23,296 nt of DNA from the IMG/VR virus record IMGVR_UViG_3300020424_000031, positions 1 through 23,296 of that record; one strand, 5' to 3'. Made by a program: the position numbers and the translations under genes. The notes beneath the pieces were generated by a model. It was not told where the DNA came from. It ran no database searches and saw only the letters and a program-made list of their open reading frames with translations. Shown here piece by piece: positions 1 to 20,400 of the stretch. The first letter of the stretch is position 1, and each line of letters begins with the position of its first letter. Source of the DNA: a virus.

Positions 1-116
1 ACATAAAATGTATCAACATTGTCAGCAGCAATATCTACTACGTAAGGTACTGCACTAATTTGGTATTCTGGAGCAAAGTTATGCCCGACTGATCTTGGTA
101 TATGTGATATTGCCAT
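1..116 (-). CDS. N-terminal fragment of an unidentified gene next to the prohead protease (truncated by window edge)
   Basis: An open frame starts with ATG at 116-114 and runs off the left edge, giving 38 residues that begin MAISHIPRSVGHNFAPEYQ and go on through a hydrophobic ISAVPYVVDIAAD-type stretch. The ATG shares one base with the TAA stop of the protease gene (TAATG), and a GGAG-type ribosome binding site lies just upstream, inside the protease gene, so this is a real start. It follows portal, an unknown gene and protease, where T4 has scaffold (gp22) and major capsid (gp23). A head or virion structural protein is therefore likely by position. The 38 residues do not identify it, and I do not recognise the family with certainty. 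A TATAAATA motif at 178-185 could give this gene its own late transcript. Confidence 0.75.
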   Translation of the reverse strand, partial: MAISHIPRSVGHNFAPEYQISAVPYVVDIAADNVDTFY

Positions 117-718
117 TATTTCCACTCCAATATGTCGTTAAAAATTCTATCTATTCTATCTGTTTTGTTAAATACATTATTTATAAACTGGGGAGAAACT
201 TCTTTTCCTTCACGCATCATAAATGCGCCTGGTGTTGAAGGCTCACTTACAAAGTCCCAGCAAATTAGTTGAAAATCATCTTGTACTATTTGCATATTAC
301 CTTCTGGTCTTGTACTACCAACTCCTCTTGAAGATATTCCTAATGTTACACCACTTTCTACTAATGATTGTAATATTTTGCCACTAGGTGTATTTAATAT
401 CTCCACAGTACCATAAACTATATTGCCTTCCATATAAGCTTCTTTGATATTATGAGATGCATTTTTTAATTCTACTACAGAAGAATCAGGATGATCTAAT
501 TCACCTAAAGCTCTGTTTTCCTTTATAAACTTTTGGTAATTTCTTATTTCTCTTTCAAGAATAGATTTTGGGTAAACTCTTCCATTTTGATTTAAAGTTT
601 CTGCTTTTTGTAAAATACCTTTCATTATTAAAGGCTGATTTGCTTCTTTTTGCTCTTTAATAATCTTAGGATCATATTCAAAATTAACCCACTCAGTTAT
701 AAGTCTTTGTGTATTCAT
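116..718 (-). CDS. 21: Prohead core protease, T4 gp21-like (peptidase U9 type)
   Basis: A 200-residue serine protease of the phage prohead, expected to cleave scaffold and other head proteins during maturation inside the assembling capsid. T4 gp21 is of similar size (about 212 residues). The N-terminal part carries the family pattern GILQKAETLNQNGRVYP (34-50). The likely catalytic histidine is H76 in GELDHP, and the nucleophile is S129 or S130 in the GISSRG loop (127-132). A conserved acidic segment, CWDFVSEPSTPGAFM, follows at 153-167. Motif order and spacing match herpes-fold phage prohead proteases. The start is fixed by an AGGAGA ribosome binding site six bases upstream, and its ATG overlaps the TAA of the preceding gene. 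It lies downstream of portal and one unknown gene, as in T4-type head operons. Assignment is by motif recognition, not alignment. Confidence 0.9.
   Translation of the reverse strand: MNTQRLITEWVNFEYDPKIIKEQKEANQPLIMKGILQKAETLNQNGRVYPKSILEREIRNYQKFIKENRALGELDHPDSSVVELKNASHNIKEAYMEGNIVYGTVEILNTPSGKILQSLVESGVTLGISSRGVGSTRPEGNMQIVQDDFQLICWDFVSEPSTPGAFMMREGKEVSPQFINNVFNKTDRIDRIFNDILEWK
178..185 (-). promoter_or_regulatory. Candidate T4-type late promoter core (TATAAATA)
   Basis: The minus strand reads TATAAATA here, an exact match to the T4 late promoter core. It lies inside the protease gene, 61 bases upstream of the ATG at 116 of the next gene. In T4, capsid genes are commonly served by late promoters inside the preceding gene. 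Caution: the DNA is so AT-rich that the same octamer occurs about a dozen times on this strand by eye, mostly deep inside genes. Only position favours this copy. Confidence 0.35.
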
Positions 719-1548
719 TAATCTTCTCCTATTAATTCTTCTTTAAGTTTAGCTAACGTCAAGAACTTTTGCATGTTTTCTTTAGACATATCTTTTTCAT
801 CCAAAGATTTAAACTTAGAAAAAACATTATTTTGTTTTTCTAATAAAATATTATTATTACAATCTTTAATATATTCTTCAAGAAGAATTTTGCTAGAAGA
901 CTTTAATGCCAAATATTTATTTTCTAATAGTTTTTCATCGTCTTTTATAAATGCCGATATTATTTCTTGTTGGGTCTCGTTAAGCTTTGAATTATATTTT
1001 TTATTAAACATTTCTTTCATAAGCTTATAAGTAAGCTTGTCAACTTTAGGCATTACTTTAGTATCTGTGATTACATTTTTGCTTGTTAAGCTTTCATGCA
1101 GCTTAATTTCATATTCAGTAACTTTGTCAAAATCACTTGAAGATTTTCTCCACTCATTAAGTAAAGTTTGAATTGTTGCATATGTTCTATAGTTTTTAAT
1201 TTTTTCTTCAAATATTAAGCCCTTGCCTATGTTATGATTTAATTCTCTTATTAGATTTGACTTTTCTTTTTCCAAAATTTCGTTATTAAACATATAATTG
1301 CAAGCTTTTTTAGCTTCTGTAATTATTGAAGAAGCAAGATGATCTGAAACGTTGTGTGTTGATGCCAAAGCCTTAAAAAGTTTGTACTCCTTGTATAACT
1401 GTGTATCTTTTTTAAAATTATTTTTAATAATTTTAATTGCAACTTCAGCTTTATCTTTTTCTTTGTTCATTAATTTATTACAAACATAGTTTATTATTTG
1501 TTCATAAATAATGCCTACATTTCTCTTTTTATTATGAGATCTTGCCAT
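718..1548 (-). CDS. Uncharacterised helical protein between portal and prohead protease
   Basis: A 276-residue, lysine- and glutamate-rich protein with long predicted helical stretches and no signal peptide, membrane segment or catalytic motif that I can see. It begins MARSHNKKRNVGIIYEQII, a basic N-terminus followed by an amphipathic helix, and ends in a charged helix (LAKLKEELIGED). Both its start and its stop are TAATG overlaps, with portal upstream and protease downstream, so it should be translated together with the head genes. T4 has the small prohead core proteins gp67 and gp68 in this interval. A core or scaffold-assembly role is therefore plausible by position, but at 276 residues it is much longer than gp67 or gp68, and no sequence link is visible. 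Function unknown. Confidence 0.85.
   Translation of the reverse strand: MARSHNKKRNVGIIYEQIINYVCNKLMNKEKDKAEVAIKIIKNNFKKDTQLYKEYKLFKALASTHNVSDHLASSIITEAKKACNYMFNNEILEKEKSNLIRELNHNIGKGLIFEEKIKNYRTYATIQTLLNEWRKSSSDFDKVTEYEIKLHESLTSKNVITDTKVMPKVDKLTYKLMKEMFNKKYNSKLNETQQEIISAFIKDDEKLLENKYLALKSSSKILLEEYIKDCNNNILLEKQNNVFSKFKSLDEKDMSKENMQKFLTLAKLKEELIGED
725..730 (-). promoter_or_regulatory. Strong ribosome binding site of the prohead protease gene
   Basis: AGGAGA on the minus strand, six bases from the protease ATG at 718 and inside the last codons of the 276-aa gene. It fixes the protease start and shows that reinitiation at the TAATG overlap is assisted by a good site. Confidence 0.7.
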
Positions 1549-3557
1549 TATTCTTCGCCTTTTTCATCTTTTAATAAATCATCATCTATAAATATGTCGT
1601 AATCTATATCATTGTTTTCTTTAAGTAATGAATTTTTATTATTATTCATATTTAAAGTGTTAGACATTCTTTCAAAATCTTTTGACATCCTATAACTAAG
1701 TTTCTTCTCTACATAGTCTTTAACAACTGGACTTTGTGGCATAATACCATCTGACAAACTTCCACTAGGCAAGTCTGAAGTCTTTATCGGACCTATATTG
1801 CTGGTAACATTTGCTCCAAATCCACTAGACAAAGAAGAAGGTGATATTGGACCTAATCCTACATCATTACCTGTTAAAAAATTTGGTTTCTTTCTTTTTT
1901 TAGGTTTTGTTGACTTAGGCTTTGATTTGTTTTTCTTCTTTTTTTCAGCATCAACGTCATCATCTTCTTCAATTAGTTTGTCGACTTCTTCAAGCTCTTC
2001 TTCTGACATTAATTTTCCGCTTTTTATTTCTCCTGCAAAAAGATCACCTAATCCTCCACCGCCACCTTGATTGCCACTTTCATCACCAGCGCCAAACATA
2101 TCATCTCCACCACCACTATCAGCCTGAGCTTGTTCTAAAGCATCTTCTTCAGAAGTCGGCAGCTGTACAGCTTCAAGCTCCATTTCTCTAAGCTTATCTG
2201 TTTCCCTGCCTTTTTCTATTCTTGAAATCTCATCGTTATTTAAGTCAAGTATATGCTTTCTAATCCATTCTTTATCAACAATACCTTCAGGAGCTGCTGA
2301 TGATATGTCAAACTTTGTTCTTATTAGTTCTAGTTTTTGTTGTTGTGCTATACTTGATGGATTACACAACCTTAATTCAAAATCAAGCAGGCTTTCATCT
2401 GTATAACCATGTGTATACAAATGAATCATTGCGAGCTTACTAAGCTCAGATACAATTGTTTTCTGTATTCTCTGTATTGTTCTACTAAACCTTATATCTT
2501 CTTGAGCAAGTGTTGCTTTAGCACCAATGTCTTCATCATAGCCAAGATATGCTTTAGGGACTTTTAGTGCAGCAAAAAGTTTCTTTTGTATATATTCTAC
2601 GTCTTCTATGGCTGTAGTGTTAGATCCTCCTGCTAATGTATCTATTCTAGTACCAGTATCTCCTCCTCTCACAGGAAGAAAATAATCTTCATCAACAGAA
2701 AGCGGATTGTATCTTAAGTCTACTTGGCCTGTTGACTTATCAACAACAGCATTTCTTTTTAAAGAGCTTTGTGCTTCTTCTAAATAATCTGCAATATTTT
2801 CAGGTGGAATATTGCCTACATCAATATAGAATACACGACGTTCAGGAGATCTTATTACTCTATACACTAGCATAGCATCTTCAATAAGAATTAACTGTCG
2901 CCAAACACGTCTTGCTCCTTCTAAAACAGAAGATCCGTATGGCAAAAATGCATCACTGCCCAAAAGCCTGAAGTGTGAAACTTGCCAATTTTCTAAAACT
3001 CTATTGCCTTGTGTTACCCATCTAAATCTTACAGCACCTGGGTCTGTAGGATCAAAACCTTCTTCTCTTTCTATTTCTGATATAGGAATAGGAAAAGCAT
3101 TTATTACTCCATATTCTGGATGAATATCATTAAATAAGAAAAAGTCTCCGTACTTACAAAGATTTCTTACCCACATGACAAGATTAAAGTCTATGTTTAG
3201 TGTATCGTAAAAAAGTTCGTTAAGAATTTTTTTAATCATTCTATTTTCAGAGTATATATGCAAAACTTGACCTTCAACATCAGGAGAAACACATTCTTCG
3301 GCGTAAATATCTAGTGCTGAGTTAATTTCAGGTGTCGCTTCCATTTCTGAAAAATCTGAATATCTTGCCATTCTATCATATGACCCGTAAGCTCTTAACG
3401 TACTGTTATATACATCACTGTGGGCTTTTCTAAATACTTCTAAAGAAGACTTTGAGCTAGATGTTTGATTAAGAGTTTTTACTTTTCTTTTAATAACTGG
3501 GCCTGAACGAAATAGACCAGTAAGCTTTTGAAATAAGTTACTATTATCAGTTGCCAT
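1548..3557 (-). CDS. 20: Portal vertex protein, T4 gp20-like, with long low-complexity C-terminal tail
   Basis: A 669-residue portal subunit, expected to form the dodecameric ring at the unique capsid vertex through which terminase pumps DNA and to which the tail attaches. The portal core spans about residues 40-465. It has the highly characteristic segment YRVIRSPERRVFYIDVGNI (232-250), the preceding SSVLEGARRVWRQLILIEDAM region (209-229), and KVPKAYLGYDEDIGAKATL (332-350), all typical of gp20. T4 gp20 is 524 residues; the excess here is a tail of about 200 residues. That tail contains a Gly/Asp-rich run (481-505), an acidic segment (518-537), a Lys-rich segment (539-557), and then a Ser/Gly/Pro-rich region with two GPI motifs. 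The start has an AGGA site about nine bases upstream and lies three bases after the terminase stop. Order terminase-portal-unknown-protease supports the call. Confidence 0.95.
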   Translation of the reverse strand: MATDNSNLFQKLTGLFRSGPVIKRKVKTLNQTSSSKSSLEVFRKAHSDVYNSTLRAYGSYDRMARYSDFSEMEATPEINSALDIYAEECVSPDVEGQVLHIYSENRMIKKILNELFYDTLNIDFNLVMWVRNLCKYGDFFLFNDIHPEYGVINAFPIPISEIEREEGFDPTDPGAVRFRWVTQGNRVLENWQVSHFRLLGSDAFLPYGSSVLEGARRVWRQLILIEDAMLVYRVIRSPERRVFYIDVGNIPPENIADYLEEAQSSLKRNAVVDKSTGQVDLRYNPLSVDEDYFLPVRGGDTGTRIDTLAGGSNTTAIEDVEYIQKKLFAALKVPKAYLGYDEDIGAKATLAQEDIRFSRTIQRIQKTIVSELSKLAMIHLYTHGYTDESLLDFELRLCNPSSIAQQQKLELIRTKFDISSAAPEGIVDKEWIRKHILDLNNDEISRIEKGRETDKLREMELEAVQLPTSEEDALEQAQADSGGGDDMFGAGDESGNQGGGGGLGDLFAGEIKSGKLMSEEELEEVDKLIEEDDDVDAEKKKKNKSKPKSTKPKKRKKPNFLTGNDVGLGPISPSSLSSGFGANVTSNIGPIKTSDLPSGSLSDGIMPQSPVVKDYVEKKLSYRMSKDFERMSNTLNMNNNKNSLLKENNDIDYDIFIDDDLLKDEKGEE

Positions 3558-3560
3558 AAA

Positions 3561-5201
3561 TTATTTTCCTATTAACCACGTAAGATCACCTAGTGGATTT
3601 TTTCTTGTCATTTCTTTATTAGTTTTATTATCGCTAAAAGTTGTTTGAGGCATATATACTGGAATAAAAGGATTCACAGAATTCTGATTATTATTATAGA
3701 AAGGTGAAATAACAGTTTTATCTATTTTTGTATTATTTGTCCCCATGCCTTTTAAAATAGCATCAGCTTGCTTCATTTGACCAATATTATAAGAACTTGA
3801 ATTGCTTTCTGATAACCAGCACCCTATTGCAAGAGACATAATAATATCATCATTATAGCCTTTCATTGAAGTAATTTTTTTACCATTCCATATAAAAGTT
3901 TTAAGCTCGCTTATTAATCTATGAGAATATGTTTTAATTCTACCGTTTCTCAAAGCTTCTTCAAAATTAGCTAAAATTTTATCCCTGCTTTCTTTATTTG
4001 TATTAAAGCCAGCTTTTCCTAGATTGTTGCCTTCACCATAAAGATACCTGTATTTTTCTTTCTCAGAAGAAAAATAAATATTTTTATATCCAAGATCACC
4101 AAGCCTAAGTAAAGTTGTATATCCATAAGCATTATTTTCTGGACATATCATTGCTTGATTAAATCTTCTAGCTATATCATATAGCAAAGATGCAAATTGG
4201 TCGGGAGGAATTTTACCTTTAAATTCAACAGAGACTGACATATCTTTTGTATTAATTACATGAAATGTCGAATAATCTCCGCTATCACCTCTTGCAATAT
4301 CTGCTGAAAGTGTATATGCTACACCTTCCAGAGGATATTCCCAATACCAAACATTATTACCAGGCCCGCTTTTTTCTACGGGAAATTTAGTTAATATTCT
4401 TAATTTATCTAGTACTTCGCCAGATATAAAAGTATCTCCAGAAGACGCAAAGTCGCATAAAAGCTCTTGAGATATTTGCTTTTTGGACATGTTTTTGGTT
4501 TCTTTATTAAACCATTCATCATCTCTTTCAGGATGAACATCCCACATTAACTTTATTGGATTAAACTCATTTTCTTTGCGCTCAGACTTGGTATATATTT
4601 CATGATATTGCCCACCAACGCCGTTGGGCGTTGATAAAAGTATTGCTCTACCACCTGTTGATAAAGTAGGATATAATCCCATCCAAAGCTCGTCAAAGTT
4701 TCTGACAAAAGCTGCCTCGTCAACTATTAAAAGTGATAGTGCTTCTGAACGGCCTGCATCTTCAGAAGTTGGAACAGCTTTTATCTGTGATCCATTAGAG
4801 AACTCAACTTGTTGTTTATTGTTTGCTGTTATAACAGGAACTAAAAGCCAGCTTGGCATGCTTTTTATATAAGTCTTTACTTTTCTAATAAAGTTTTGAG
4901 CAACAGCAAGCTTTGTTGCAATAATTAATATATTTTTTTCTTTGTAAAATATTGCCTGCCAAACAGCATAAGCCGCTACTAGTGTTGATAATCCTAACTG
5001 TCTAGACTTAAGAATAATATTAAATCTATGATTATTAAAGTCATCTACACAGTCATCCTGAAATTTAAAGGTATTAAATGGAATAAGTCCTTTAAGAGGA
5101 TGTTGTATTTTTAAATACTTGTTCATAAAATAGACAGGATCTTTTCCACATTTTACTATTTCTGTAATTTGATGTTTTTTAGACCTTGCCGATTTGCTCA
5201 T
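3561..5201 (-). CDS. 17: Terminase large subunit, T4 gp17-like packaging ATPase/nuclease
   Basis: A 546-residue motor that cuts concatemeric phage DNA and drives it into the prohead by ATP hydrolysis, docked on the portal. The ATPase half has a deviant Walker A, KSRQLGLST (65-73). Its lysine is at the first position and a leucine replaces the usual GK lysine, a variant known in large terminases. Walker B is LLIVDEAAF (157-165, D161/E162), and the coupling motif is LLSTPNG (188-194). The RNase H-fold nuclease half shows three acidic sites: D301 in SADIARG, E355 in ICPENN, and D451/D452 in YNDDIIMSLA. Motifs, order and size (T4 gp17 is 610 residues) all agree. The gene lies between a 123-residue unknown and portal, with gaps of three bases each side. 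No sheath or tube gene separates it from portal, unlike T4. Confidence 0.96.
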   Translation of the reverse strand: MSKSARSKKHQITEIVKCGKDPVYFMNKYLKIQHPLKGLIPFNTFKFQDDCVDDFNNHRFNIILKSRQLGLSTLVAAYAVWQAIFYKEKNILIIATKLAVAQNFIRKVKTYIKSMPSWLLVPVITANNKQQVEFSNGSQIKAVPTSEDAGRSEALSLLIVDEAAFVRNFDELWMGLYPTLSTGGRAILLSTPNGVGGQYHEIYTKSERKENEFNPIKLMWDVHPERDDEWFNKETKNMSKKQISQELLCDFASSGDTFISGEVLDKLRILTKFPVEKSGPGNNVWYWEYPLEGVAYTLSADIARGDSGDYSTFHVINTKDMSVSVEFKGKIPPDQFASLLYDIARRFNQAMICPENNAYGYTTLLRLGDLGYKNIYFSSEKEKYRYLYGEGNNLGKAGFNTNKESRDKILANFEEALRNGRIKTYSHRLISELKTFIWNGKKITSMKGYNDDIIMSLAIGCWLSESNSSSYNIGQMKQADAILKGMGTNNTKIDKTVISPFYNNNQNSVNPFIPVYMPQTTFSDNKTNKEMTRKNPLGDLTWLIGK

Positions 5202-5632: not shown

Positions 5633-5887
5633 TTATTTATAAGGTCTCCAACCATTTTCCCATTTTTCTTTATTAGGATAGTAATATATTATTTGACATT
5701 CTTCACAAACATCATACTTTTTTACTGATTCTACATCCTCTATAGTAGATATTAATACTTTACAGCAAGGGCAATCAATAGATACAGTTTCATGATTGAC
5801 AGGCCTAATAAATCTTATATCTTTTCTAATAAATTCTTCAGTTTCATTATCAAGTCTATACCAGTTTTTTTTATTCATAATGGACAT
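5633..5887 (-). CDS. Small zinc-ribbon protein of unknown function
   Basis: A protein of about 84 residues with a four-cysteine zinc-ribbon pattern: C-P-C-C and, 18 residues later, C-E-E-C (CxxC-x18-CxxC, counting the outer cysteines). An aromatic, charged C-terminus ends KEKWENGWRPYK. The frame overlaps the end of the SbcD-SbcC gene. Three in-frame ATGs are available, at 5896, 5887 and 5878. The AAGGA at 5898-5902 is only one base from the first but ten bases from the second, so 5887 is preferred here. The third would give the short ATG/stop overlap typical of coupled phage genes. The paired cysteines suggest metal binding and perhaps contact with nucleic acid or a polymerase, but nothing shows a specific role. 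Confidence 0.75.
   Translation of the reverse strand: MSIMNKKNWYRLDNETEEFIRKDIRFIRPVNHETVSIDCPCCKVLISTIEDVESVKKYDVCEECQIIYYYPNKEKWENGWRPYK
5634..5641 (-). promoter_or_regulatory. Candidate T4-type late promoter core (TATAAATA) ahead of the packaging/head genes
   Basis: The minus strand reads TATAAATA, overlapping the stop region of the zinc-ribbon gene and ending 57 bases upstream of the ATG of the 123-aa gene. The motif equals the T4 late promoter core. It stands at the junction between the DNA-metabolism block and the terminase-portal-protease block, where a late promoter would be expected. The rest of the gap (5577-5632) is AT-rich without a clear -35 element. The octamer is frequent by chance in this DNA, so only its position makes it a candidate. 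Confidence 0.4.
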
Positions 5888-8800
5888 AAGAGTCATTTCC
5901 TTTCACGTTTATTTCAATGTTTTTATCAACAATATCTTTTATTGCATCAACATGAGATATGACAATTATTGTCTTGAAGTACTTTTTAAGACTAGTCAAT
6001 AATCTGCCACAAGCCTCTACGTTTGATTCATCTAAAGCTCCAAATCCTTCATCAATTATAAATATATCAGGTTTTGAAAGTGAAGATATATTTGTCAAAG
6101 CAACTCTTATTGCAATTGAAGACATCATCTTTTCCATTCCGCTTGCACACTCAATAACTCTTTTAGAGTCACCATAGTCAATATATACATTTAAATTATT
6201 GCTATCTTCTTCATCCTGAAGATAAACTTTAAAGCTTGTTACACCATTTAATATTTTACTTATCTCATTGTTTATTTTAGGTAAACAAGACTTTATAAGC
6301 ATAGTAGGAATACCTTTTTTAGATATAGCATAGGAAAAAAGGTCATATACTTTCCATTTTTTAACTAAATCATTATATTCTTCTTTTTCTTTTTTTAGGC
6401 TTTCTATTTTTACATCAATTTCAAACTGGTTCTTTTCTAATTTTTTTGATTTAATTTCTTCATTATAGATTAAATCGCTAACTCTATTTAAGCTACGCTT
6501 GATATCTTTTAATTTTAAACCTAAATCATTAGAATCAAAAATCATTAACTCCTCAATTAAAACAGATAACTTTTCTATTTTTTCTAGATTTATTGAATAT
6601 TTTTCTTTTAAAGCTTTGATTTTTACTTCTGTGTTTTCTAAGTCAACATTAAGCTTGTATTCTTTGTTAATAACATCATTGTACTTTTTAAGCTTTGTTT
6701 CTATGTTTTCTTTCTCTATACTTTTAACTACACCTTGAACTTCAAATATTGATCCTTCTATTTCTTTAAGATTTTCAATTATATCTTTGTTTTTATCTAT
6801 AGAGCTATAAGCGTTTTCAATGAACATACATGAAGGATATTTATTTTCACATGGAACTTGATTAAGTATTTTAAGATCTTTGTCTACATTCTTTTTTTCT
6901 TGTTCTAGACTAAATTTTAAAGCCTTAAAGTCTCTTAGCTTTTTTAATAAATTATTAAGCTTTGTTTTTTCTTCTTCTAACTCTTCAACAGGATACTGTG
7001 ACTTAAATCTATATATTTTATCTATAGAAGACTTTATATTTTCTTTTTTTAAGCATAATTCTTTTATTTGTTTATCTATTCTTGTTTTTCTTTCTTTAAG
7101 ATTATTAATCTCTTTGTTTGCATTATCTAGAGTATATCCTGAAGGATGTGTTTTTGAATTTGACAGTGTTTCTTTTTCTTCAAGCCTTAAAGAAACTTCT
7201 TCTTGTCTTAATGCTGACAGTTTATTTCCTGTCTCTGCAATTAGCTTTTTATTTGTCTCTATTTCTTTTAGTAAAGAATTTATTAATCCTTGCCAGTCTT
7301 TTTCTTCAATTCTTTTTAAAGAATTTTTTAGTACAATATACTCTTCTCTAGACTGCTTATATAGCTCTTCATATATATCTAAATTTAAAAACTTTGAAAT
7401 TACTGATTTTCTTGCTGAAGATTTTTCTTTAATAAAAGTGTTCATTTCACCTTGAGATGCAAAACTGGTGTATAAAAAATCTTCAGACGTACCAATTATT
7501 TTCCTTAAAACTTTTTCAGTTTCTCTTCTTTGCTCCTCAGTTTCATCATTTTCAAAATCGTCATTTAAATTAATTAGCTCAAGCTTAGTATTAGCAGAAG
7601 TTATACCTTTTTTACTGGTTTTTTTAATAGTCTCTCTAATTATGTTATATTCATCAGTACCAATGCTTATGTTTATCTTTGTTTTGCAACTACCTTTTCT
7701 AATATTGATAATATCATGATTTTTAAGAGTACCTCTATCTGTTGTATTAAATAATCCATACATTAAAGTTCCAGGTATAGATGATTTTCCTGCCCTATTG
7801 TTTCCAAATAAGCCGATAACTCCTTGCATATTGTTAAAGTTTATAAAGTTGTTTTTTCCGTAAGAAAAAGTATTATCAAATTCCATAGAATTAATTGACC
7901 ATTTTTGACCACTGACATCAGAAAAGCTATTTGGAACACTATCTAGTGACTTTACAAATATATCGTCTAAGTCGGAAATAACTTTTTCTTCTAATTTTTC
8001 ACCCCACAAATCTTTCAATAAAGAATAACGGTCACTTTTATTTCTAATATCTAACTTTGGTTTAAATTCATTTGCAAAAGTCTGACTTTCATTATTAGTC
8101 TTATTAAGAACCTGATAAACAATTTCGTGTGCACGTCTTTTTTCTTTAAGATAATAGTGCAATAATTTTATTTCAGCTTGAGATATGTTTTCTTCTGATC
8201 TTACTCTAAACCTTACACCTTTCTTAACTTTGCTTGCAAATCTTATAGTTTCTTCTACAGACCCTTTCCAATCTAATGTTAAAAACGGGTGAGGATTAGA
8301 TACACTTATAAATTTGCTTTTATAGTCATGCTTAGAGTTAATTTCCCAATAAAGAAAGCCTTTTAGAATATCTTCACCGTAGTTTTGTTGTATTGTAGAT
8401 CCTGGGTATGCTACTCTTTTATCTTCATCTAAATACTGAAATTTGTGTATGTCACCTAAAAAACTAAATTCATAATTGTCAAAAAAAGAAAGGTTAACTT
8501 CACCTTCAAGCTCCCAGTCTGTATCCGTTTTTGAACCTAAAACAGAGCCGTGAAAGCAAGCAATGTTTATTTCATTATCTACAGGCTTTACGTCTTTCCA
8601 TCCTTTTTGATCAAAACAAGAAAAAACGCACCAGTTAAATCCATCAACACCAACAGGATATGTTCCACTTTTCTTGTAAAGAAAGATATTTGGGTTATTA
8701 ATTGCCGAAAGTAGTGGCGTTATTGCGTCTTGCCTGTCTTCATTAAGAATAAGACCATCATGATTACCTAATATTACATGTGTAGGTGCAATTTCAGCTA

Positions 8801-9008
8801 ATGATTCAAACCACCATGTTAAAGATTCAATGATCTCTGGTGAAATACCTTGCGTTTTAGAATGAACAATGTCACCGCCTATAAATATTGCATCTAATTC
8901 TAGACCTTTTAACTTTTTAAATATAAGCTTAAATACTTTTTTATACTCATCGTGTCTTTTAAGACCACGCCAGTGAATATCAGATATATGTGCACATTTA
9001 AAAGTCAT
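5871..9008 (-). CDS. Single-chain SbcD-SbcC / Mre11-Rad50 recombination nuclease (gp47 and gp46 in one protein)
   Basis: A 1045-residue protein joining both subunits of the end-resection complex that prepares DNA ends for recombination-dependent replication. Residues 1 to about 220 are a Mre11/SbcD metallophosphatase: SDIHW (D10, H12), GGDIVH (D46), GNHD (81-84), FHG (H153) and GDIHKF (H188). A capping region runs to about 365. The Rad50/SbcC ATPase then begins: Walker A FGNNRAGKSS (401-410), Q-loop Q519, a coiled coil from about 550 to 900 with a cysteine pair at the apex (C720, C727), a signature-like SGMEK (956-960), Walker B IFIIDE (982-987), D-loop ALDE, and switch histidine H1019. Both halves are full length compared with T4 gp47 (339) and gp46 (560), where they are separate genes. 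An AAGGA site lies five bases before the ATG. The gene sits between primase and the zinc-ribbon gene. Confidence 0.93.
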   Translation of the reverse strand: MTFKCAHISDIHWRGLKRHDEYKKVFKLIFKKLKGLELDAIFIGGDIVHSKTQGISPEIIESLTWWFESLAEIAPTHVILGNHDGLILNEDRQDAITPLLSAINNPNIFLYKKSGTYPVGVDGFNWCVFSCFDQKGWKDVKPVDNEINIACFHGSVLGSKTDTDWELEGEVNLSFFDNYEFSFLGDIHKFQYLDEDKRVAYPGSTIQQNYGEDILKGFLYWEINSKHDYKSKFISVSNPHPFLTLDWKGSVEETIRFASKVKKGVRFRVRSEENISQAEIKLLHYYLKEKRRAHEIVYQVLNKTNNESQTFANEFKPKLDIRNKSDRYSLLKDLWGEKLEEKVISDLDDIFVKSLDSVPNSFSDVSGQKWSINSMEFDNTFSYGKNNFINFNNMQGVIGLFGNNRAGKSSIPGTLMYGLFNTTDRGTLKNHDIINIRKGSCKTKINISIGTDEYNIIRETIKKTSKKGITSANTKLELINLNDDFENDETEEQRRETEKVLRKIIGTSEDFLYTSFASQGEMNTFIKEKSSARKSVISKFLNLDIYEELYKQSREEYIVLKNSLKRIEEKDWQGLINSLLKEIETNKKLIAETGNKLSALRQEEVSLRLEEKETLSNSKTHPSGYTLDNANKEINNLKERKTRIDKQIKELCLKKENIKSSIDKIYRFKSQYPVEELEEEKTKLNNLLKKLRDFKALKFSLEQEKKNVDKDLKILNQVPCENKYPSCMFIENAYSSIDKNKDIIENLKEIEGSIFEVQGVVKSIEKENIETKLKKYNDVINKEYKLNVDLENTEVKIKALKEKYSINLEKIEKLSVLIEELMIFDSNDLGLKLKDIKRSLNRVSDLIYNEEIKSKKLEKNQFEIDVKIESLKKEKEEYNDLVKKWKVYDLFSYAISKKGIPTMLIKSCLPKINNEISKILNGVTSFKVYLQDEEDSNNLNVYIDYGDSKRVIECASGMEKMMSSIAIRVALTNISSLSKPDIFIIDEGFGALDESNVEACGRLLTSLKKYFKTIIVISHVDAIKDIVDKNIEINVKGNDSYVHYE
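5898..5902 (-). promoter_or_regulatory. Ribosome binding site that decides the start of the zinc-ribbon gene
   Basis: AAGGA on the minus strand, inside the end of the SbcD-SbcC gene. It is one base before the ATG at 5896 (too close), ten bases before the ATG at 5887 (acceptable), and nineteen before the ATG at 5878 (too far). This favours the middle start. Confidence 0.5.
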
Positions 9009-9019
9009 TTATTTCCTTT

Positions 9020-10012
9020 TCAAAGCATAGATATTTTTGCCATTAGGCTGTCTTCTTTTTTATATTTTGAAGCATTATCTAACAATTCTTCAAATTGTTC
9101 TAAAGACATATCACCAACATCTTCAGCACCTCTAGTATCAACTATATTAACATCAATATCATATTCTGATAATAATTTTGCTATTTTTAATGTTTTATTA
9201 TAAACATCACTATCTAAAGCTAATGCTACAGGAGTTTTGTTTTCAACTATTTTAGAAAAAAGTTTCATGTCTTGCGTAAGAGATGAGCCAAGTAAGCAAG
9301 TTGCGTTATCATTTGTTTTTAAAAGATCTAAAGGACCTTCAACAATAGTAAGTCTTTGGCTCCAGTCAATATTTATTTCGTTAAATATAATTTTGCTTTT
9401 TTTATTATTTGAATTTTTATATTTAAAAGAATCTTTAGAAGAAACGTCTATTTTCCTGGCAGTAAAAAAATTAATTTCACCTTTGTCGTCTAAAGAAGGA
9501 AGAATTAAGCATCTTCTAAAGTTTTCGTCCAACGAATAGCCTAGCCTCAACATCCAAAACTTGTGCTTATTTGCGCCTCTTTTAATTGCGTACTTAAAAA
9601 CATCTCTTGCATCAGGATCATAAGCATTATAAGCATTTGCTAAAAGTTTAAAACCATTAGGCACTTCAACTAATTCATCTTCTTCAATATAGTCTTCTTT
9701 TCCAAATAAAGAATTTATATTTATACCTAAATCAAACTTGTTATTAACTCTTTTTTTAAAAAATCTTTCTGACTCTAAAGACTTGTTTTTATTTATTTTA
9801 GATATTAAATAGTTTACATTTGAACCTTTTTTGTCACAAACCCAACAATGATAAAAGTTTTTTTCTAAATGTATGACTAACTTAAGCTTGCTTTTGTTCG
9901 GGTGCTTACAATAAGGACACCATATACATGCATTTACACCATCTTTTGAAAGCGATACATTTGTAAAAGATTGCAAAAAGTCAAGTTTTTCATAAATTGT
10001 TTTGTTCTTCAT
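9020..10012 (-). CDS. DNA primase, T4 gp61 / DnaG-type (zinc finger plus TOPRIM)
   Basis: A 330-residue primase that would synthesise RNA primers for lagging-strand replication, working with a replicative helicase not encoded in this window. The N-terminal zinc-binding domain has C32-x2-C35 and C56-x2-C59, with H55 beside the second pair (YHCWVC), like CHC2-type primase fingers. The TOPRIM catalytic core shows the key glutamate in TIVEGPLDLL (E225), the acidic pair in LALDSD (D267, D269), and a third acidic cluster AEDVGDMS (296-303). Length is close to T4 gp61 (342 residues). The ATG at 10012 lies inside the end of the RuvC-like gene (23-base overlap). The gene ends with TGA 11 bases before the SbcD-SbcC start, so the three nucleic-acid enzymes form one tight translational unit. 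Confidence 0.9.
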   Translation of the reverse strand: MKNKTIYEKLDFLQSFTNVSLSKDGVNACIWCPYCKHPNKSKLKLVIHLEKNFYHCWVCDKKGSNVNYLISKINKNKSLESERFFKKRVNNKFDLGININSLFGKEDYIEEDELVEVPNGFKLLANAYNAYDPDARDVFKYAIKRGANKHKFWMLRLGYSLDENFRRCLILPSLDDKGEINFFTARKIDVSSKDSFKYKNSNNKKSKIIFNEINIDWSQRLTIVEGPLDLLKTNDNATCLLGSSLTQDMKLFSKIVENKTPVALALDSDVYNKTLKIAKLLSEYDIDVNIVDTRGAEDVGDMSLEQFEELLDNASKYKKEDSLMAKISML

Positions 10013-10568
10013 TATAAATTAGTGCCTTACATATTACATATGCGTCAGACATATCATAACAAGATTCATCAAATTTTACAAGACCTTTATTAGGGCCACT
10101 TTTTAAAGTCTTCATAGGCCAATCAAAATCATTTTTTAAATTACTTTTTACCCACTGAAATACTTGCTCTTTAGTAGACAAATCTAACTTCTTGTTTATT
10201 TTAATTTCTAAATTTTTTCTAGCGCTATTAACATTTATATATACAGGAATAACAGAGAATACATCTGCTGAAAGGTATGATACAATACCGTTAAACCTAT
10301 TGAGTTGTGACAACGTTTTAGCAGATGAAAATCCTTTGCTAAATGACTGAAATGATTCTTCTATACTTATCTTAAAGTCTTCTGTAAAAGAATATTTATT
10401 TTTTAATTTTGTAAATTCATCTTTAACTGCATTAGACTTACTAAAAATACATTTAATCTTTTTTAAATTAATACTACATAGATCTACTAGATCTTTATTG
10501 GAGTCTAATAAACATATACCTATAATAGAAGTTGATATATCTAGTCCTAAATATTTTATTTTTTTCAT
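9990..10568 (-). CDS. RuvC-like RNase H-fold nuclease, probable Holliday junction resolvase
   Basis: A 192-residue protein with the RuvC arrangement of acidic residues: D10 in YLGLDIST on the first beta strand, E70/E71 in ISIEES, and D172 and D175 in CYDMSDAYVIC near the C-terminus. A helix with SAKTLSQLNRFNGIVSYL (82-99) matches the central helix seen in phage RuvC-like enzymes. Such enzymes cut branched DNA (Holliday junctions) formed by replication and recombination, needed before packaging. T4 uses an unrelated enzyme (endonuclease VII, gp49) for this. The start is a TAATG overlap with the 1060-aa gene, with only a weak ribosome binding site (GGAC), suggesting coupled translation. The stop lies within the primase gene. 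Family call by motif; substrate inferred. Confidence 0.82.
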   Translation of the reverse strand: MKKIKYLGLDISTSIIGICLLDSNKDLVDLCSINLKKIKCIFSKSNAVKDEFTKLKNKYSFTEDFKISIEESFQSFSKGFSSAKTLSQLNRFNGIVSYLSADVFSVIPVYINVNSARKNLEIKINKKLDLSTKEQVFQWVKSNLKNDFDWPMKTLKSGPNKGLVKFDESCYDMSDAYVICKALIYNEEQNNL

Positions 10569-13500
10569 TAAAAGTCCATCTTTAGTCTAAACAATACATT
10601 ATCTAAACTCTTTTTAGGGAATGGTTTAGCTAACTTTGCTGTTGCTAGTATATTAAGATCATGATCATGTAAATGAATATCAGTTATATAAACAAATTTT
10701 TCATCTGAATTAAAGGCAGAATCGTCTAGTCTTAAATCTTCGTTATAAGATAAATTTCTGGAAAGATTTGTTTTACCTGCATGTGCTGGTAAATTTAATT
10801 CCATTACATTTAAAGATGTTGCACATTTAAAGTTTATTCCAAAATTATTTTTACCAAAATTTTCAAGACCTGGGTGAAGTAATGTAATCAATCCTTCACC
10901 ATATAAGCAATGACCAACAAAATTCCAAGTAGCTTGCTTTGTTAAACAATCAGCCCTATATAAACAACCTAATCCGTTATCTTTAAGTGTAACTTGCAAG
11001 GATCCACCTGATCCTTGCAAATCAACGTCTTTTATTTCTAAAGTTTCTCTTTCTATTTTCCTTCTAAATAGCTGACTAGATATATCAAAAATTACTGAAT
11101 AGTTTTCACTTCTATCTTTTGTAATATTAAATATAGGCAGCTCATGCTTGTAATATCCTACAGTATCAGGTGTAGGTTGACTATTATCAAGTTGTTTTTC
11201 GGAAATAGGTGGCAAAGTATTTCCAACACCTGATAGATAATTATCGTGTATTTTTCTTCCTAAAGGATTTGAATAATCATTAAAAAAATCTTCTCTACCA
11301 ACAGTAAAAGATGATGACATACCAGAAGTACTAGTTTTATTAATTTTCAACATTCTAGAATTATCATAAGTGTCGTCTAATACAAAAGTTGATTTAAAAA
11401 AGTTGTTTAGCGAAGTATTTTTAAATAAATTGTAACTTTCTTTAAATGTTCCTTGTAAAAGACCTAATAAAAAGTTATCTCTATCTTCTAGGTCAACTGT
11501 AAATCCTAAAGTTTCACTTTTTTCTATTAGAAAAGAATTTCCAGATATTGATTGTATAGACTGAATTGGTATAAGTGCTATATTTTCGCTATGCACATTA
11601 TTTAAATTAACAAAGCCTAAGTCAAAGTAATCATTTTCATTAATATGAAATATTCCACTATAATTTTCATAATAATTTTTAAATTCATTATATTTTTGCT
11701 CTTGTAAACCGTTATCGTTTGGAAGAATAAAGTTGTTTTTATAATTAATATTGCTGGAAAAATAAAAGCTTTGTTCATCTTGTTGGTCTAAAGAATTATT
11801 AGTTGAAATTTTTTCAAAATATACATCATTTACTGAAAAGCCTTTTTTAACTCTAATGTTTACTATGTCATCTGCATCACTAAAGTTTGAGTCACAAGCT
11901 ATTATGTTCCAAGCATCTCGAAAAGAAGAGTCATCGCTAAAGCTATTATTTATTATGAAATTTGGAGAAACTTTTTTCTTAAACTCCACTATAAAATTTT
12001 CAACTGATACTTCATGCCCTAAACACTTATTTGAAAAATAACTGTTAACAGGACCGTCTATTAATAAATTATCATCATTAATTTCATTTCTATTACTGCC
12101 ATTAGAACTTAAACCGTTCAAGTTAACAAGACCTTTTCTTTTAATATCAGATTCATAATAAAAACATGGCACTGAAAAAATTAAGTTTTCATCATTAAAA
12201 TCTTCTATAGACTTTTTACATATAAGCTCTTCAACATTTTGAATATGTCTATTATATATTCTAATATCATGAAGTTCAGCGTTTAAAGCTAGACTAGTAT
12301 TAGGTCCAACATAGTTTGCTGGCCCTCCAGAGCTAAGAGGTCCTACAAGAGTATTTTTAAAATCATGTGATATAGCGTCGTCATGTATTGCTACGGGAAC
12401 TTCAGAAATATTAGTTATGTCTGTCCCAAAGTCTATATGTTTTTTTACATAAGGACCTAACTTATCATCATTTTCTGATTTATTAATAGAGAAAAGTTTA
12501 TTGAAAATATTGCCTAGATTATTGCTATTTTCTAAGTTTATTAGAGAATCTGAAATATTTTGAAACCTATTGCCTACAGTTATAAATGTATTACTATTTT
12601 CTCCAGCGTCTGTTATTACATTATCACTTTGATCAACTTGTTTGTTGAATTCTACACTTATATTTGTAAAAAAATCTTTTATAATTCCGTCAACATACAA
12701 TTCTAAATCATACTTTTCAGTGCCTTCTGGCTTTTTAACAAAAGAAAGGCATATATTGTGCCATTTGTTGTGTTCAACAATGTTGTCTGATGTTAATAAG
12801 TAACTATTTCTTTCAAAACCAGTGTTTCCTGCAATATAATATTTGTCAGAACTATTTATATTATTTTTTAAGAAATCATTTCTGTCGAAGTTGCCTAGCG
12901 TTCCGTTACCTGTTTCTATATAAAAACGATATTTATCTGTTAAACCGTTTATATCTGTGCTTGAACCTTTTACTATATAGATACCTATTATATGGGGAAT
13001 ATGCAAAATACAACCAGGATTAAAATGGTAATCGCTTTTATTTTTTCTTCTTTGATTGATATAGAAAGAAAAAGTTAATCCTCCGTTTTGTTCTGTTTTA
13101 AAGTCATATACTTTTTTTTGAACACCATTTTCTGTATACACTAAATTAGGGTAAGCTAAACAATTACTGTGCGTTTTATTTTTTAAATCTTTAAACAAGT
13201 CATCATTTAGCTTTTCGCTTACATTGAAAAAGTTTAGAGTATTATAATTACTAAATCCCCAGTTTAAATTATGTTGTCTATATTCAATATTCTCTCTATA
13301 AAACTTGTATAAATTTTTTATTGACTTTTTTTTATTGTAGGCATTATCTTCTACTAAATATTTCTGTTGTATTCTATCAACGCCAAATTTATATTCTCCA
13401 CTTCTATCAAAAAAAAACCCTTTGCTTTCTAAAGAAGCTTCATAGTCTTGTAAATTATTTAAGATATTAAAAGGAGGATTATTAAATTTTGAATCATTCA

Positions 13501-13750
13501 AAATATTAACATTTTTTTCGCTTAAAACATCTAAAGATATATCTTTTACTTTAAATGTTCTTGGATATTCTAAGTTCCACTTATTTGCGTTGATAGACTT
13601 AGCTTTTAATTCACCAAATACGCCAGGGCTTTCTAGTTCTAGTAAGTTTAAATTATTACAATCTAGTGAAGCAGAAACAAAGCTTACTATAGGCTTAAGC
13701 TCTATTTTGTTTTTTACTATCATGTTTTTATCTATAATATTTAAAGGCAT
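10568..13750 (-). CDS. Large virion protein with LamG/concanavalin-like region, probable tail or fibre component
   Basis: A 1060-residue, asparagine-rich, beta-rich protein. Residues about 215-510 look like a LamG / concanavalin A-like jelly roll: TFSFYI near 226, W330-HNICLSFV, ELYVDGIIKDF (350-360), and a closing ELHDIRIYNRHI strand near 490. Such domains often bind glycans in phage fibres. The C-terminal 130 residues form a separate conserved-looking region that includes YRADCLTKQATWNFVGH, and its last 70 residues resemble the end of the 406-aa neighbour. There is no signal peptide or transmembrane span. An AGGG site lies seven bases before the ATG at 13750, and the stop overlaps the RuvC-like start. 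The exact structural role (fibre, baseplate, tail) cannot be read from the sequence. Confidence 0.85.
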   Translation of the reverse strand: MPLNIIDKNMIVKNKIELKPIVSFVSASLDCNNLNLLELESPGVFGELKAKSINANKWNLEYPRTFKVKDISLDVLSEKNVNILNDSKFNNPPFNILNNLQDYEASLESKGFFFDRSGEYKFGVDRIQQKYLVEDNAYNKKKSIKNLYKFYRENIEYRQHNLNWGFSNYNTLNFFNVSEKLNDDLFKDLKNKTHSNCLAYPNLVYTENGVQKKVYDFKTEQNGGLTFSFYINQRRKNKSDYHFNPGCILHIPHIIGIYIVKGSSTDINGLTDKYRFYIETGNGTLGNFDRNDFLKNNINSSDKYYIAGNTGFERNSYLLTSDNIVEHNKWHNICLSFVKKPEGTEKYDLELYVDGIIKDFFTNISVEFNKQVDQSDNVITDAGENSNTFITVGNRFQNISDSLINLENSNNLGNIFNKLFSINKSENDDKLGPYVKKHIDFGTDITNISEVPVAIHDDAISHDFKNTLVGPLSSGGPANYVGPNTSLALNAELHDIRIYNRHIQNVEELICKKSIEDFNDENLIFSVPCFYYESDIKRKGLVNLNGLSSNGSNRNEINDDNLLIDGPVNSYFSNKCLGHEVSVENFIVEFKKKVSPNFIINNSFSDDSSFRDAWNIIACDSNFSDADDIVNIRVKKGFSVNDVYFEKISTNNSLDQQDEQSFYFSSNINYKNNFILPNDNGLQEQKYNEFKNYYENYSGIFHINENDYFDLGFVNLNNVHSENIALIPIQSIQSISGNSFLIEKSETLGFTVDLEDRDNFLLGLLQGTFKESYNLFKNTSLNNFFKSTFVLDDTYDNSRMLKINKTSTSGMSSSFTVGREDFFNDYSNPLGRKIHDNYLSGVGNTLPPISEKQLDNSQPTPDTVGYYKHELPIFNITKDRSENYSVIFDISSQLFRRKIERETLEIKDVDLQGSGGSLQVTLKDNGLGCLYRADCLTKQATWNFVGHCLYGEGLITLLHPGLENFGKNNFGINFKCATSLNVMELNLPAHAGKTNLSRNLSYNEDLRLDDSAFNSDEKFVYITDIHLHDHDLNILATAKLAKPFPKKSLDNVLFRLKMDF
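10571..10780 (-). other. C-terminal module A (last 70 residues of the 1060-aa protein), related to module B
   Basis: Residues 991-1060 contain N-L-S-x-N-x-S-Y, then after a spacer YITDIHLHDHDLNILATAK, a P-x-x-K step, and an ending R-L-K-M-D-F. The same order and spacing, with one residue of offset, ends the 406-aa protein. In the last 40 residues, 11 positions are identical by hand alignment and most others are conservative. This suggests duplicated or shared assembly modules. Confidence 0.65.
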
Positions 13751-17437: not shown

Positions 17438-20400
17438 TTATATCACTTTTACTTCTATCATATACGCATAGCTATTATGAAAATTACTTAACTTACTTAT
17501 ATCCATTGTATTTTTTATTTTTCTTTCAATCATTTTTCTTGATATTTTTACAGAAAATATGTCAAAGTATTTATCCTCTAACAGCGATTTAAATATTTCT
17601 AAGTTAGATATATCTTTATCAATTAGTTTAAAAAATTCTAAAGAATGAATATTATTGTCTATGAGATCAACTTTATTGTTTATTTCTAAATTTAAGTCAT
17701 CTATTTCTACAAATTCTCTTGATTTTGATTTGCTTTCTAAAAACACCTTTTGATATTTGCTTTCGTCAAAATCTTCAAACATAGCCAAAGAGTTTTTTGA
17801 TAAAATATTTTCTTTTACTAAACCTATCTCGTTTATTTTATTTTCGTCAAAAATATTGTTTTTAAAATAACTTAAGTTTTTAATGTAGTTTGACATTTTG
17901 TTTTGAGCAATTATAGAATTAATATTACTAAGCGATATAATATCAATTTCCTCACTGTTTCTTGACTCAAATAAATACTTTGATATTTTTCTGTTTTCTA
18001 TTAAATTGTAAAGAGCATAACCAGGTGCTGTATTAATTAAATACATATCATTAAAATTTTTAGAACCAAAATTGTAAAAACCAATATTGTTTGTAAAACT
18101 ATCCAGACTTATTGTTGTATTACTTGACATTATAGAAGAAATAATCGCCGGAGAAATATCAGTAAACATAGGTGTATAATAAAAGTCAAAATAGTCAAAC
18201 TCAATTTGAGGAAATTTATGATTAACTACATGAACTCTTATATTTAGAAGTTTTTCATTACTTAAGTGCTCAGCTAAGCTATAGTCTATTCCGAACCTTA
18301 GAATATCAAATTTTTGTATATTGCCAGGATCCTCATTAATATATATGTTTTCCATTGCAATATTTGCAAGTATCTTTTTTGATTCTTCTTCTTTTATTCT
18401 ATGCTTAAAAAAATCTTCAACTTCTTTATATTTTTCTTTTAAAGAAAAAACAAGATTACTATTGTTTATAAGCTTTTTATATAATAAGTCTCTGTAATAT
18501 AATTCATTCTGTAATATTTTGGATAACTTTGCAAGAATAATATTACTATCTAAAATATTATCTATGTCTAAATTAAAATCAAGATTTTGCTCAATCAAAG
18601 AATTAATGTTTGTTAAAAGATCAATACTTTTATTGTTTATGTCTTGAATTCTTGTCTTATTTATTTCTAAATTTACAAGATAGCCATGTATTAAATCATA
18701 AGTTAAACTTTCAAAGCAATCTGAGTTATTTAGTGTTATCAAAGAAAGATAAAGATTTATAAACTCAGAATTATAAGACTCCGCAAGGACTGATCTTTCG
18801 TTAGTAATGGAAAAGGATAAAGGCGTACTTCTTTTTTCAAATCTATTTACTAAAAAATCAATTTCTTTAAAATAAAAATCAGCACTTTCATTCCATAAGC
18901 TATCCAAATTAATACTAATTTGACTTGAAGAGTCAACATCAAATTCTGTACCATTGTTTACATTACTTGGCAAAGTATTTGTTATGATTTTATTCGTATA
19001 GATGTTGACCATCATTTCATTAATTTTTTCAAAGTAAGAAGAAAAAATTTGACAGTATGACTTTAATAGACTGTTTATATGTTCTATTAGGGGTTCATTG
19101 CTATCTATAAAGTCCTTAATTTTTTCTACATCTTGAAAATTATCTTTTTTTAAATAGAATAAAATTTCTGAAATAAAGTCATGAATTTTTTTAGAAAAAT
19201 TATATTTTCTTTTAACATGTCGAGGATAATAGTCCCACATATATGTTAAACTTGTTTGAATGTAATTTAGTCTATTCCCGATCGATATTTTATCTTCAAT
19301 TGATACTTTATTTTCATTTTCTGGGCTATATATAAAGTATTTATATGTATTTGGATCTTCCAAGTTAATGTCAGTATTATTAAGTGATAAGTATCTTAAA
19401 TAACAGGCTGAGTTTTCAATATCAAAATTGGCACTTTCTATTGAATCTTCGTAATCATATTTCGATATATAAGCATCATAATTAAATGTATAAGAACTTA
19501 AAATATCGTTTATAAATTCTATATCTTCCTTTTTTTGTAAAGGACTTCTTTCTTCGGATGATGGGTCAATTCTATTTATACAAATAGAGTTATCAAAATC
19601 GTCTTCAAGTATGTGTATATCTCTTTCTTTAGCTTTAAAAATTTTTACGTGATTTTTAAAAGGAAAAAGAAACTGTATTACTTTGCCGCCTATAACGCCT
19701 ATTAATTGATCGTCATCAATTAAACTGCTATTACTTAAAAAGTCTTTGTTTATTGTTCTTAACGTATAAGTTTTTTGATTTTTTAATGCTTCGTAGCCAA
19801 ATATATTTTTTATATGCTCATCATAATTTAAAATTTTATTAAGCTCTTCTCTTTTTTTCTTGCGTTCCTCTTGTTCTCCCCAATTATCAAAAAACCCAAG
19901 ATTGTTTTTTTCAACCAAAGATGTAAAAATTAAAAATTTTGTTGTTTCAATATTGTCTGAATTTACGATAGCATCAGATAAAAGTTTTATATAACCAAAG
20001 TCTGATTTAAATCTTTTATCCCATTTTAAACATGACTTTGAATCTTTTAAGGCTTTAACAATTACATCTTTTGAGTTTCTTAAAAAGTTTTTTGGGTAAT
20101 AAAAGGTCAAAAATTCTCTTATATTATCACTATTTATTTCTAAATTTAATGAATCAATATTCTCTATTGAGTCTAATATTTCGTTTGTTGATAATATATT
20201 TGTTGAATTGCTTTTTATAAAATTATTTTTAGAATAAAAAGCGTCTTCGAAGTCTATAAGCAAGTCACTTTCTTCCAAGCTGTACAAGCTATTATCTTGA
20301 TTTTTATCATGAAAGAAAACAATATCTTTCTGATTATCTAAAGATTTTTCTCTAACTTTACCCATATAGTCAACAAAATCTTTTGCTTCAAAATTATTTT

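Follow-up and report, generated by a model that had tools for sequence, protein, structure and literature searches.

Does the viral DNA considered here encode both partners of a DNA-end resection machine, the Mre11/SbcD nuclease and the Rad50/SbcC ATPase, in a single polypeptide, and what would such a protein do for its phage? The window, by which we mean the whole stretch of 23,296 nucleotides analyzed (positions 1 to 23,296 of IMG/VR record IMGVR_UViG_3300020424_000031), carries on its minus strand (read 9008 to 5871) one frame of 1045 codons that starts with ATG and has no internal stop. The gene is confirmed as a genuine one-chain nuclease-ATPase, and we consider it very probable that this phage Mre11-Rad50 (SbcD-SbcC) fusion works as an M2R2-like resection nuclease in recombination-dependent replication. 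A first-pass annotation, made from the letters alone, had placed the metallophosphatase and Rad50 motifs in this frame, where we also find them, with two corrections: motif V reads GDIH, with an Asp, and the apex of the coiled coil is not a CxxC.

Domain organization of the fused protein

The two halves are recognizable by profile. Pfam Metallophos (calcineurin-like phosphoesterase) matches residues 4-188 (E 3e-11) and PHROG 77 (SbcC-like) matches residues 271-1044 (E 7e-51), while a match to SbcC_Walker_B at residues 949-1005 falls under the Pfam cut-off. Comparison with solved structures by sequence likewise assigns the N-terminal part to SbcD/Mre11 and the C-terminal part to Rad50/SbcC, so that an Mre11-like nuclease precedes a Rad50-like ATPase in one frame. 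The domain order is phosphodiesterase, capping domain, helix-loop-helix (HLH), a linker of ~12 residues, and a Rad50/SbcC ATPase whose coiled coil is short (Table 1). All five phosphodiesterase motifs with their two-metal ligands are present (DIH 10-12, GDIVH 45-49, GNHD 81-84, FHG 152-154 and GDIH 185-188), one His being replaced by Asp. The full Rad50/SbcC set is arranged around an antiparallel coiled coil: Walker A (GNNRAGKSS, 402-410), Q-loop (Q519), signature (SGMEK, 956-960), Walker B and D-loop (IIDEGFGALD), and H-loop (His1019).

An AlphaFold2 monomer model, built with 75 sequences, has a mean predicted local distance difference test (pLDDT) score of 83 and a predicted template modeling (pTM) score of 0.48, and we therefore use its domain folds and not its inter-domain arrangement. 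Model residues 2-300 match Staphylococcus aureus SbcD (7dog; Z 24.4, root-mean-square deviation (rmsd) 2.8, 275 residues aligned) and residues 1/2-300 match Escherichia coli SbcD (4lty; Z 24.1), whereas residues 370-1045 match E. coli SbcC (Z 29.8, rmsd 3.1, 353 aligned), with SbcC/Rad50 structures generally scoring Z ~30. The modeled coiled coil is antiparallel and short, at ~165 residues per arm.

The first-pass annotation had described residues 220-365 as a capping/linker region. The capping domain is indeed included, but most of this stretch consists of ordinary Mre11 domains. The two helices at residues 324-356 are the counterpart of the Mre11 HLH, and the family profile aligns through to the C-terminus of Thermotoga maritima Mre11, although conservation there is weak. 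Because the HLH ends at residue 356 and residue 1 of both E. coli SbcC and Pyrococcus furiosus Rad50 falls opposite model residue 370, the true linker is confined to residues ~357-368. Both capping domain and HLH are thus kept, and the linker that follows is long enough to reach the Rad50 N-terminus, given the 9-12 residues reckoned necessary to span the T. maritima Mre11-Rad50 complex (Yoshida et al. 2011, PMC3175470).

Proposed mechanism and role

In the mechanism we propose, each chain would contribute one nuclease with its capping and HLH domains, the linker, a complete Rad50 head and the short antiparallel coiled coil. Two chains would pair through their nuclease domains and ATP-bound heads to form an M2R2-like homodimer, in which ATP-driven opening and closing of the heads may give a DNA end access to the two-metal nuclease. 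The nuclease pair would then make a resected 3′ end for the phage RecA/UvsX, which could carry it into recombination-dependent replication. We favor an M2R2 mechanism because it follows established Mre11-Rad50 and T4 gp46/gp47 biology, the T4 roles being long-standing knowledge summarized in PMC3175470. The single-chain M2R2-like dimer raised in the first-pass annotation needs qualifying, since one chain amounts to M1R1 and M2R2 needs two chains. Yoshida et al. (PMC3175470) explain such fusions by equal amounts of both halves and by gene co-transfer, and an "always-assembled" complex is plausible.

Several points weigh against this reading. The apex of the window protein lacks the canonical CxxC; an Asp replaces the metal ligand equivalent to P. 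furiosus His206; the structure prediction is of a monomer only, with a pTM of 0.48; and the window is a 23 kb fragment, with the phage's own RecA and polymerase outside its view.

The strongest competing explanation is that the main job of the protein is degradation of host DNA, or processing of packaging/replication intermediates, and not resection for recombination-dependent replication. T4 gp46/gp47 are annotated as needed for recombination and host-DNA degradation alike, and the fusion gene lies beside terminase and portal, but we judge the idea unlikely: a RuvC-like resolvase and a primase stand immediately upstream of the fusion, RecA recombinase is usual in related genomes, and resection and degradation are in any case not exclusive roles. 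The gene order in most of the 80 best-matching loci (see below) is tail/structural genes, RuvC-like resolvase, primase, fusion, small genes, terminase, T4-type portal, a conserved open reading frame (ORF) and prohead protease. Of 15 long relatives (93-237 kb), all 15 encode a T4-type portal and 12 a RecA, which fits the resection role suggested in the first-pass annotation. The fusion is the sole metallophosphatase and the sole real SbcC match in these 15 contigs, two further weak SbcC matches being coiled-coil noise; the database classes the contigs as fragments, which makes absences in them suggestive only.

Integrity of the nuclease site

Could the nuclease half instead be dead or altered, leaving a protein whose main function is the ATP-dependent tethering or scaffolding of DNA ends? 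The suspicion arises from D186, which is invariant and, in the profile alignment, falls opposite the first His of the GHIH motif of T. maritima Mre11, a residue equated with P. furiosus His206 by Yoshida et al. (PMC3175470). Yet the remaining ligands are all invariant as well. The first-pass annotation had made its reading depend on the nuclease site of the homologues, and every metal-ligand position (D10, H12, D46, N82, H83, H153, D186 and H188) is kept in 82/82 aligned full-length sequences. The same holds in the ATPase for Walker A N404, G407, K408 and S409, for Q519 and SGMEK, for D986, E987 and D993, and for H1019. The nuclease domain is also slow-evolving. Against the closest relative (87% identical), the ratio of nonsynonymous to synonymous substitution rates (dN/dS) is 0.055 in the nuclease, 0.04-0.06 in the ATPase lobes and 0.18-0.23 in the coils; for more distant pairs, where dS approaches saturation, the ratios are only approximate.

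Asp is, moreover, able to bind metal, and in Mimivirus R555 the His206 position is likewise an Asp. GDxxH of R555 contains a His (PMC3175470), as it does in T. maritima Mre11 in the profile alignment. Motif V also reads GDxH in gp47-like nucleases that phages encode separately (GDIH in Vibrio phage MAR10, GDLH in T5-like My1) and in most other fusions, while the fusion of Sphingomonas phage PAU has GHIH. We therefore reject the Asp as a fusion-specific trait and, as separate nucleases carry it too, see in it no sign of decay. Taken with the invariant ligands and the low dN/dS, a dead nuclease is not supported and appears very improbable.

Distribution among viral contigs

A profile scan of viral contigs returned at least 587 relatives, of which the best 80 loci by similarity to the fused query, with a few near-duplicates among them, were analyzed. 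The full fusion lies in a single frame of ~1040-1065 amino acids in 78 of these 80, a share that applies to loci picked by likeness to a fused query and not to all of the at least 587; the remaining two run off the ends of their contigs. The 78 proteins are 39-87% identical to the window protein, and the closest (L001), on a contig from another sample, has equal length and one frame. That an assembly join or frameshift error near 7905-7940 makes two adjacent genes read as one is conceivable for a metagenomic contig such as the window, but its probability is negligible and we reject it for the family, given 78 independent viral contigs and two contigs of metagenome-assembled genomes (MAGs) with the same single frame and near-constant motif spacing, and a 1066-residue version in the GenBank-complete phage Mel-JY01. 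Both the spread of the fusion and its continuity across the junction, raised as checks in the first-pass annotation, are thereby borne out by the homologues, and Mre11/Rad50 fusions are very common in aquatic phages, being present in hundreds of aquatic viral contigs.

Five genome-collection contigs matched as well. Four (L085, L086, L087 and L088) are phage-like with part of the shared gene order; the split member discussed below (L089) is the fifth. L085, L086 and L087 are binned as Methylococcaceae, archaeon and Gemmatimonadetes MAGs, yet carry the phage gene block, and are probably misbinned phage contigs. Plasmid relatives gave matches to the ATPase half only. In a 484 kb phage (L005:4944-9169, LR756508.1), an insert splits the fusion homologue directly behind motif V (GDIHK). 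It contains a 305-aa ORF (5665-6582) with many CxxC pairs and is probably an intron or intein that brings a homing endonuclease and sits at the nuclease active site.

The coiled-coil apex

The Rad50 zinc hook, a CxxC at the apex of the coiled coil, is absent from the window protein. A CX6C motif with the consensus PCGDxFPxCKFI occupies the apex in 72/75 proteins of its marine clade, wider or extra cysteines occur in 3/75 and CxxC in 0/75, whereas T4 gp46, T5-like D13 and herellevirus SbcC have CxxC, as do the other phage fusions. Within the window's clade, the distance between Walker A and the hook differs by a few residues only, while the coils diverge freely. We tentatively raise the possibility, itself rather doubtful, that the marine clade has rebuilt its apex, with a CX6C loop replacing the universal CxxC zinc hook on a coiled coil of nearly fixed length, and that this, together with the fusion, means a differently tethered complex. 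The apex could, for example, dimerize inside one M2R2 particle, or do so through a disulfide or another zinc geometry, as opposed to the reversible inter-complex hook of Rad50. A narrow literature search on variant hooks in phage Rad50 gave only RloC and no description of a CX6C variant. The altered hook offers a test of how far the zinc hook is needed.

Genomic setting

Table 1. Features of the fused gene and its neighbors in the window.
Feature	Position	Strand	Basis
Fused Mre11/SbcD-Rad50/SbcC gene, 1045 aa	5871..9008	-	Single ORF; Pfam, PHROG; 78 single-ORF viral homologues
Phosphodiesterase (nuclease) domain, residues 1-228, with metal-ligand positions D10, H12, D46, N82, H83, H153, D186, H188	8325..9008	-	Pfam Metallophos; invariant ligand columns; SbcD structure matches
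Capping domain, residues ~229-300	8109..8324	-	AlphaFold2 secondary structure; SbcD matches reach residue 300
HLH (Rad50-binding) element, residues 324-356	7941..8039	-	Helices 324-335 and 341-356; profile alignment to T. maritima Mre11 C-terminus
Inter-domain linker (fusion junction), residues 357-368	7905..7940	-	Lies between HLH and first Rad50 strand
Rad50 ATP-binding cassette (ABC) N-lobe, residues 369-550, with Walker A 402-410 and Q519	7359..7904	-	Alignment, model, structure matches
Coiled-coil arm 1, residues ~551-716	6861..7358	-	Model; almost indel-free across 82 homologues
Coiled-coil apex, residues 717-730, C720-X6-C727 in place of CxxC	6819..6860	-	Alignment, model, hook comparison
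Coiled-coil arm 2, residues ~731-895	6324..6818	-	Model
Rad50 ABC C-lobe, residues 896-1045, with signature SGMEK, Walker B, D-loop, H1019	5874..6323	-	Pfam, alignment, structure matches
DNA primase, CHC2-type zinc ribbon, conserved upstream neighbor	9020..10012	-	Pfam/PHROG; synteny
RuvC-like Holliday junction resolvase, conserved upstream neighbor	9990..10568	-	PHROG 159 and 827; synteny
87-aa four-cysteine protein (CPCC...CEEC), start overlaps fusion 3′ end by 26 nt; beside fusion in 58 loci	5633..5896	-	ORF; synteny
Terminase large subunit, T4 type	3561..5201	-	Pfam/PHROG; synteny
Portal protein, T4 gp20 family	1548..3557	-	Pfam/PHROG; portal scan of long relatives
Prohead protease, T4 gp21 family (Peptidase S77)	116..718	-	Pfam/PHROG

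Beyond the genes in Table 1, positions 10568-13750 of the window encode a conserved 1060-aa protein that has no PHROG match and whose homologues occupy the equivalent position in most related contigs. A 1769-aa ORF lies at 17438-22747; a homologue was not detected in the fetched neighborhoods, whose flanks often end short of that position. In contig L017 (IMGVR_UViG_3300008952_002784, 102559-106161), the T4-type portal match falls in three stretches within one 1897-aa open frame, which suggests two in-frame inserts, perhaps inteins. No photosystem reaction-centre gene (psbA-type, PF00124), a cyanophage marker, was found in the 15 long relatives.

Origin of the fusion

In trees of phage sequences and one split rumen member, with R555 and the bacterial and eukaryotic fusions left out, all sampled phage fusions group together whether the nuclease half, the ATPase half or both joined are used. 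Support for the group is 100/99 in the joined tree and 99/99 in the ATPase tree; in the nuclease tree, at 80/85, it is not strongly supported. Yoshida et al. (PMC3175470) describe such fusions as falling outside the canonical bacterial, archaeal and eukaryotic Mre11/Rad50 clades, and R555 and the bacterial and eukaryotic fusions as not monophyletic.

The clade includes the naturally split member, on a rumen MAG contig (CACYXI010000001.1) binned as Bacteroidales. Its 277-aa nuclease ORF (L089:6001-6834) does not reach the capping domain; the end of the capping/HLH region instead opens another ORF of the same genome, 792 aa long (L098:1372-3750), in which Rad50 follows. Because the split sits oddly inside the nuclease subunit, later fission of a fused gene is favored over primitive separateness; the data suggest one fusion followed by fission, with two independent fusions as a less probable alternative. 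The split member offers a nuclease naturally separated from its capping domain.

Comparison with known systems

The fusion itself, treated as unusual in the first-pass annotation, has been known since 2011, and the window protein adds a member. In that year Yoshida, Claverie and Ogata (PMC3175470) reported such Mre11/Rad50 proteins from Mimivirus, from plasmids, from bacteria and eukaryotes, and from one phage, noted abundant aquatic phage homologues, and made the case that the R555-like genes of aquatic metagenomes are phage genes. What was then drawn from short metagenomic reads now stands on phage contigs that are long and syntenic and carry T4-type virion genes and RecA. Cultured phages with the fusion include Mel-JY01, pT24, PTm1, PAU and MA9V-1, whose deposited proteins are labeled, for example, "metallo-phosphoesterase", "DNA repair exonuclease" or "AAA domain containing protein". 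With the terms used, no post-2011 papers on phage gp46/gp47 fusions were found in the open literature. A small single-chain Mre11-Rad50 family should be easily expressed for structural work on resection. Set beside known systems, the window protein compares as follows:

(i) Mimivirus R555-type fusions share one chain with an N-terminal nuclease and a C-terminal ATPase, a kept capping domain and HLH, and a short linker; R555, which we know through PMC3175470, also shares the His in GDxxH and the Asp for His206. By that description R555 is longer, at 1351 aa with a longer coiled coil, whereas the window protein has 1045 aa, a T4-type phage context and a CX6C apex. Giant-virus relatives of R555 are the best full-length matches in a viral structure library.

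(ii) Microcystis phage Mel-JY01 encodes its fusion as one chain of 1066 aa (WWT39521.1, with the annotation "AAA domain containing protein"), which is 28.6% identical over the full length and has a primase upstream. It differs in its CxxC hook, in a small gene between primase and fusion, and in that terminase and portal are not adjacent.

(iii) Tenacibaculum phages pT24, PTm1 and PTm5, Sphingomonas PAU, Chryseobacterium MA9V-1 and the 735 kb LR756501 have single-chain fusions that fall in the same clade in the trees of either half, but at 1202-1326 aa they have longer coiled coils, and their hooks are CxxC. Besides the fusion, LR756501.1 has an SbcC-like gene of its own at 670999-672753 (L095; 566 aa from ATG), and fused and separate forms can therefore coexist.

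(iv) T4 gp47 and gp46 are a homologous nuclease and ATPase, and the window's virion genes are of T4 type. The T4 proteins come from two genes, as the first-pass annotation stated, with two small ORFs between them; they have a CxxC hook and lie outside the fusion clade, whereas the window encodes one chain, the sole copy of each half in the 15 long relatives.

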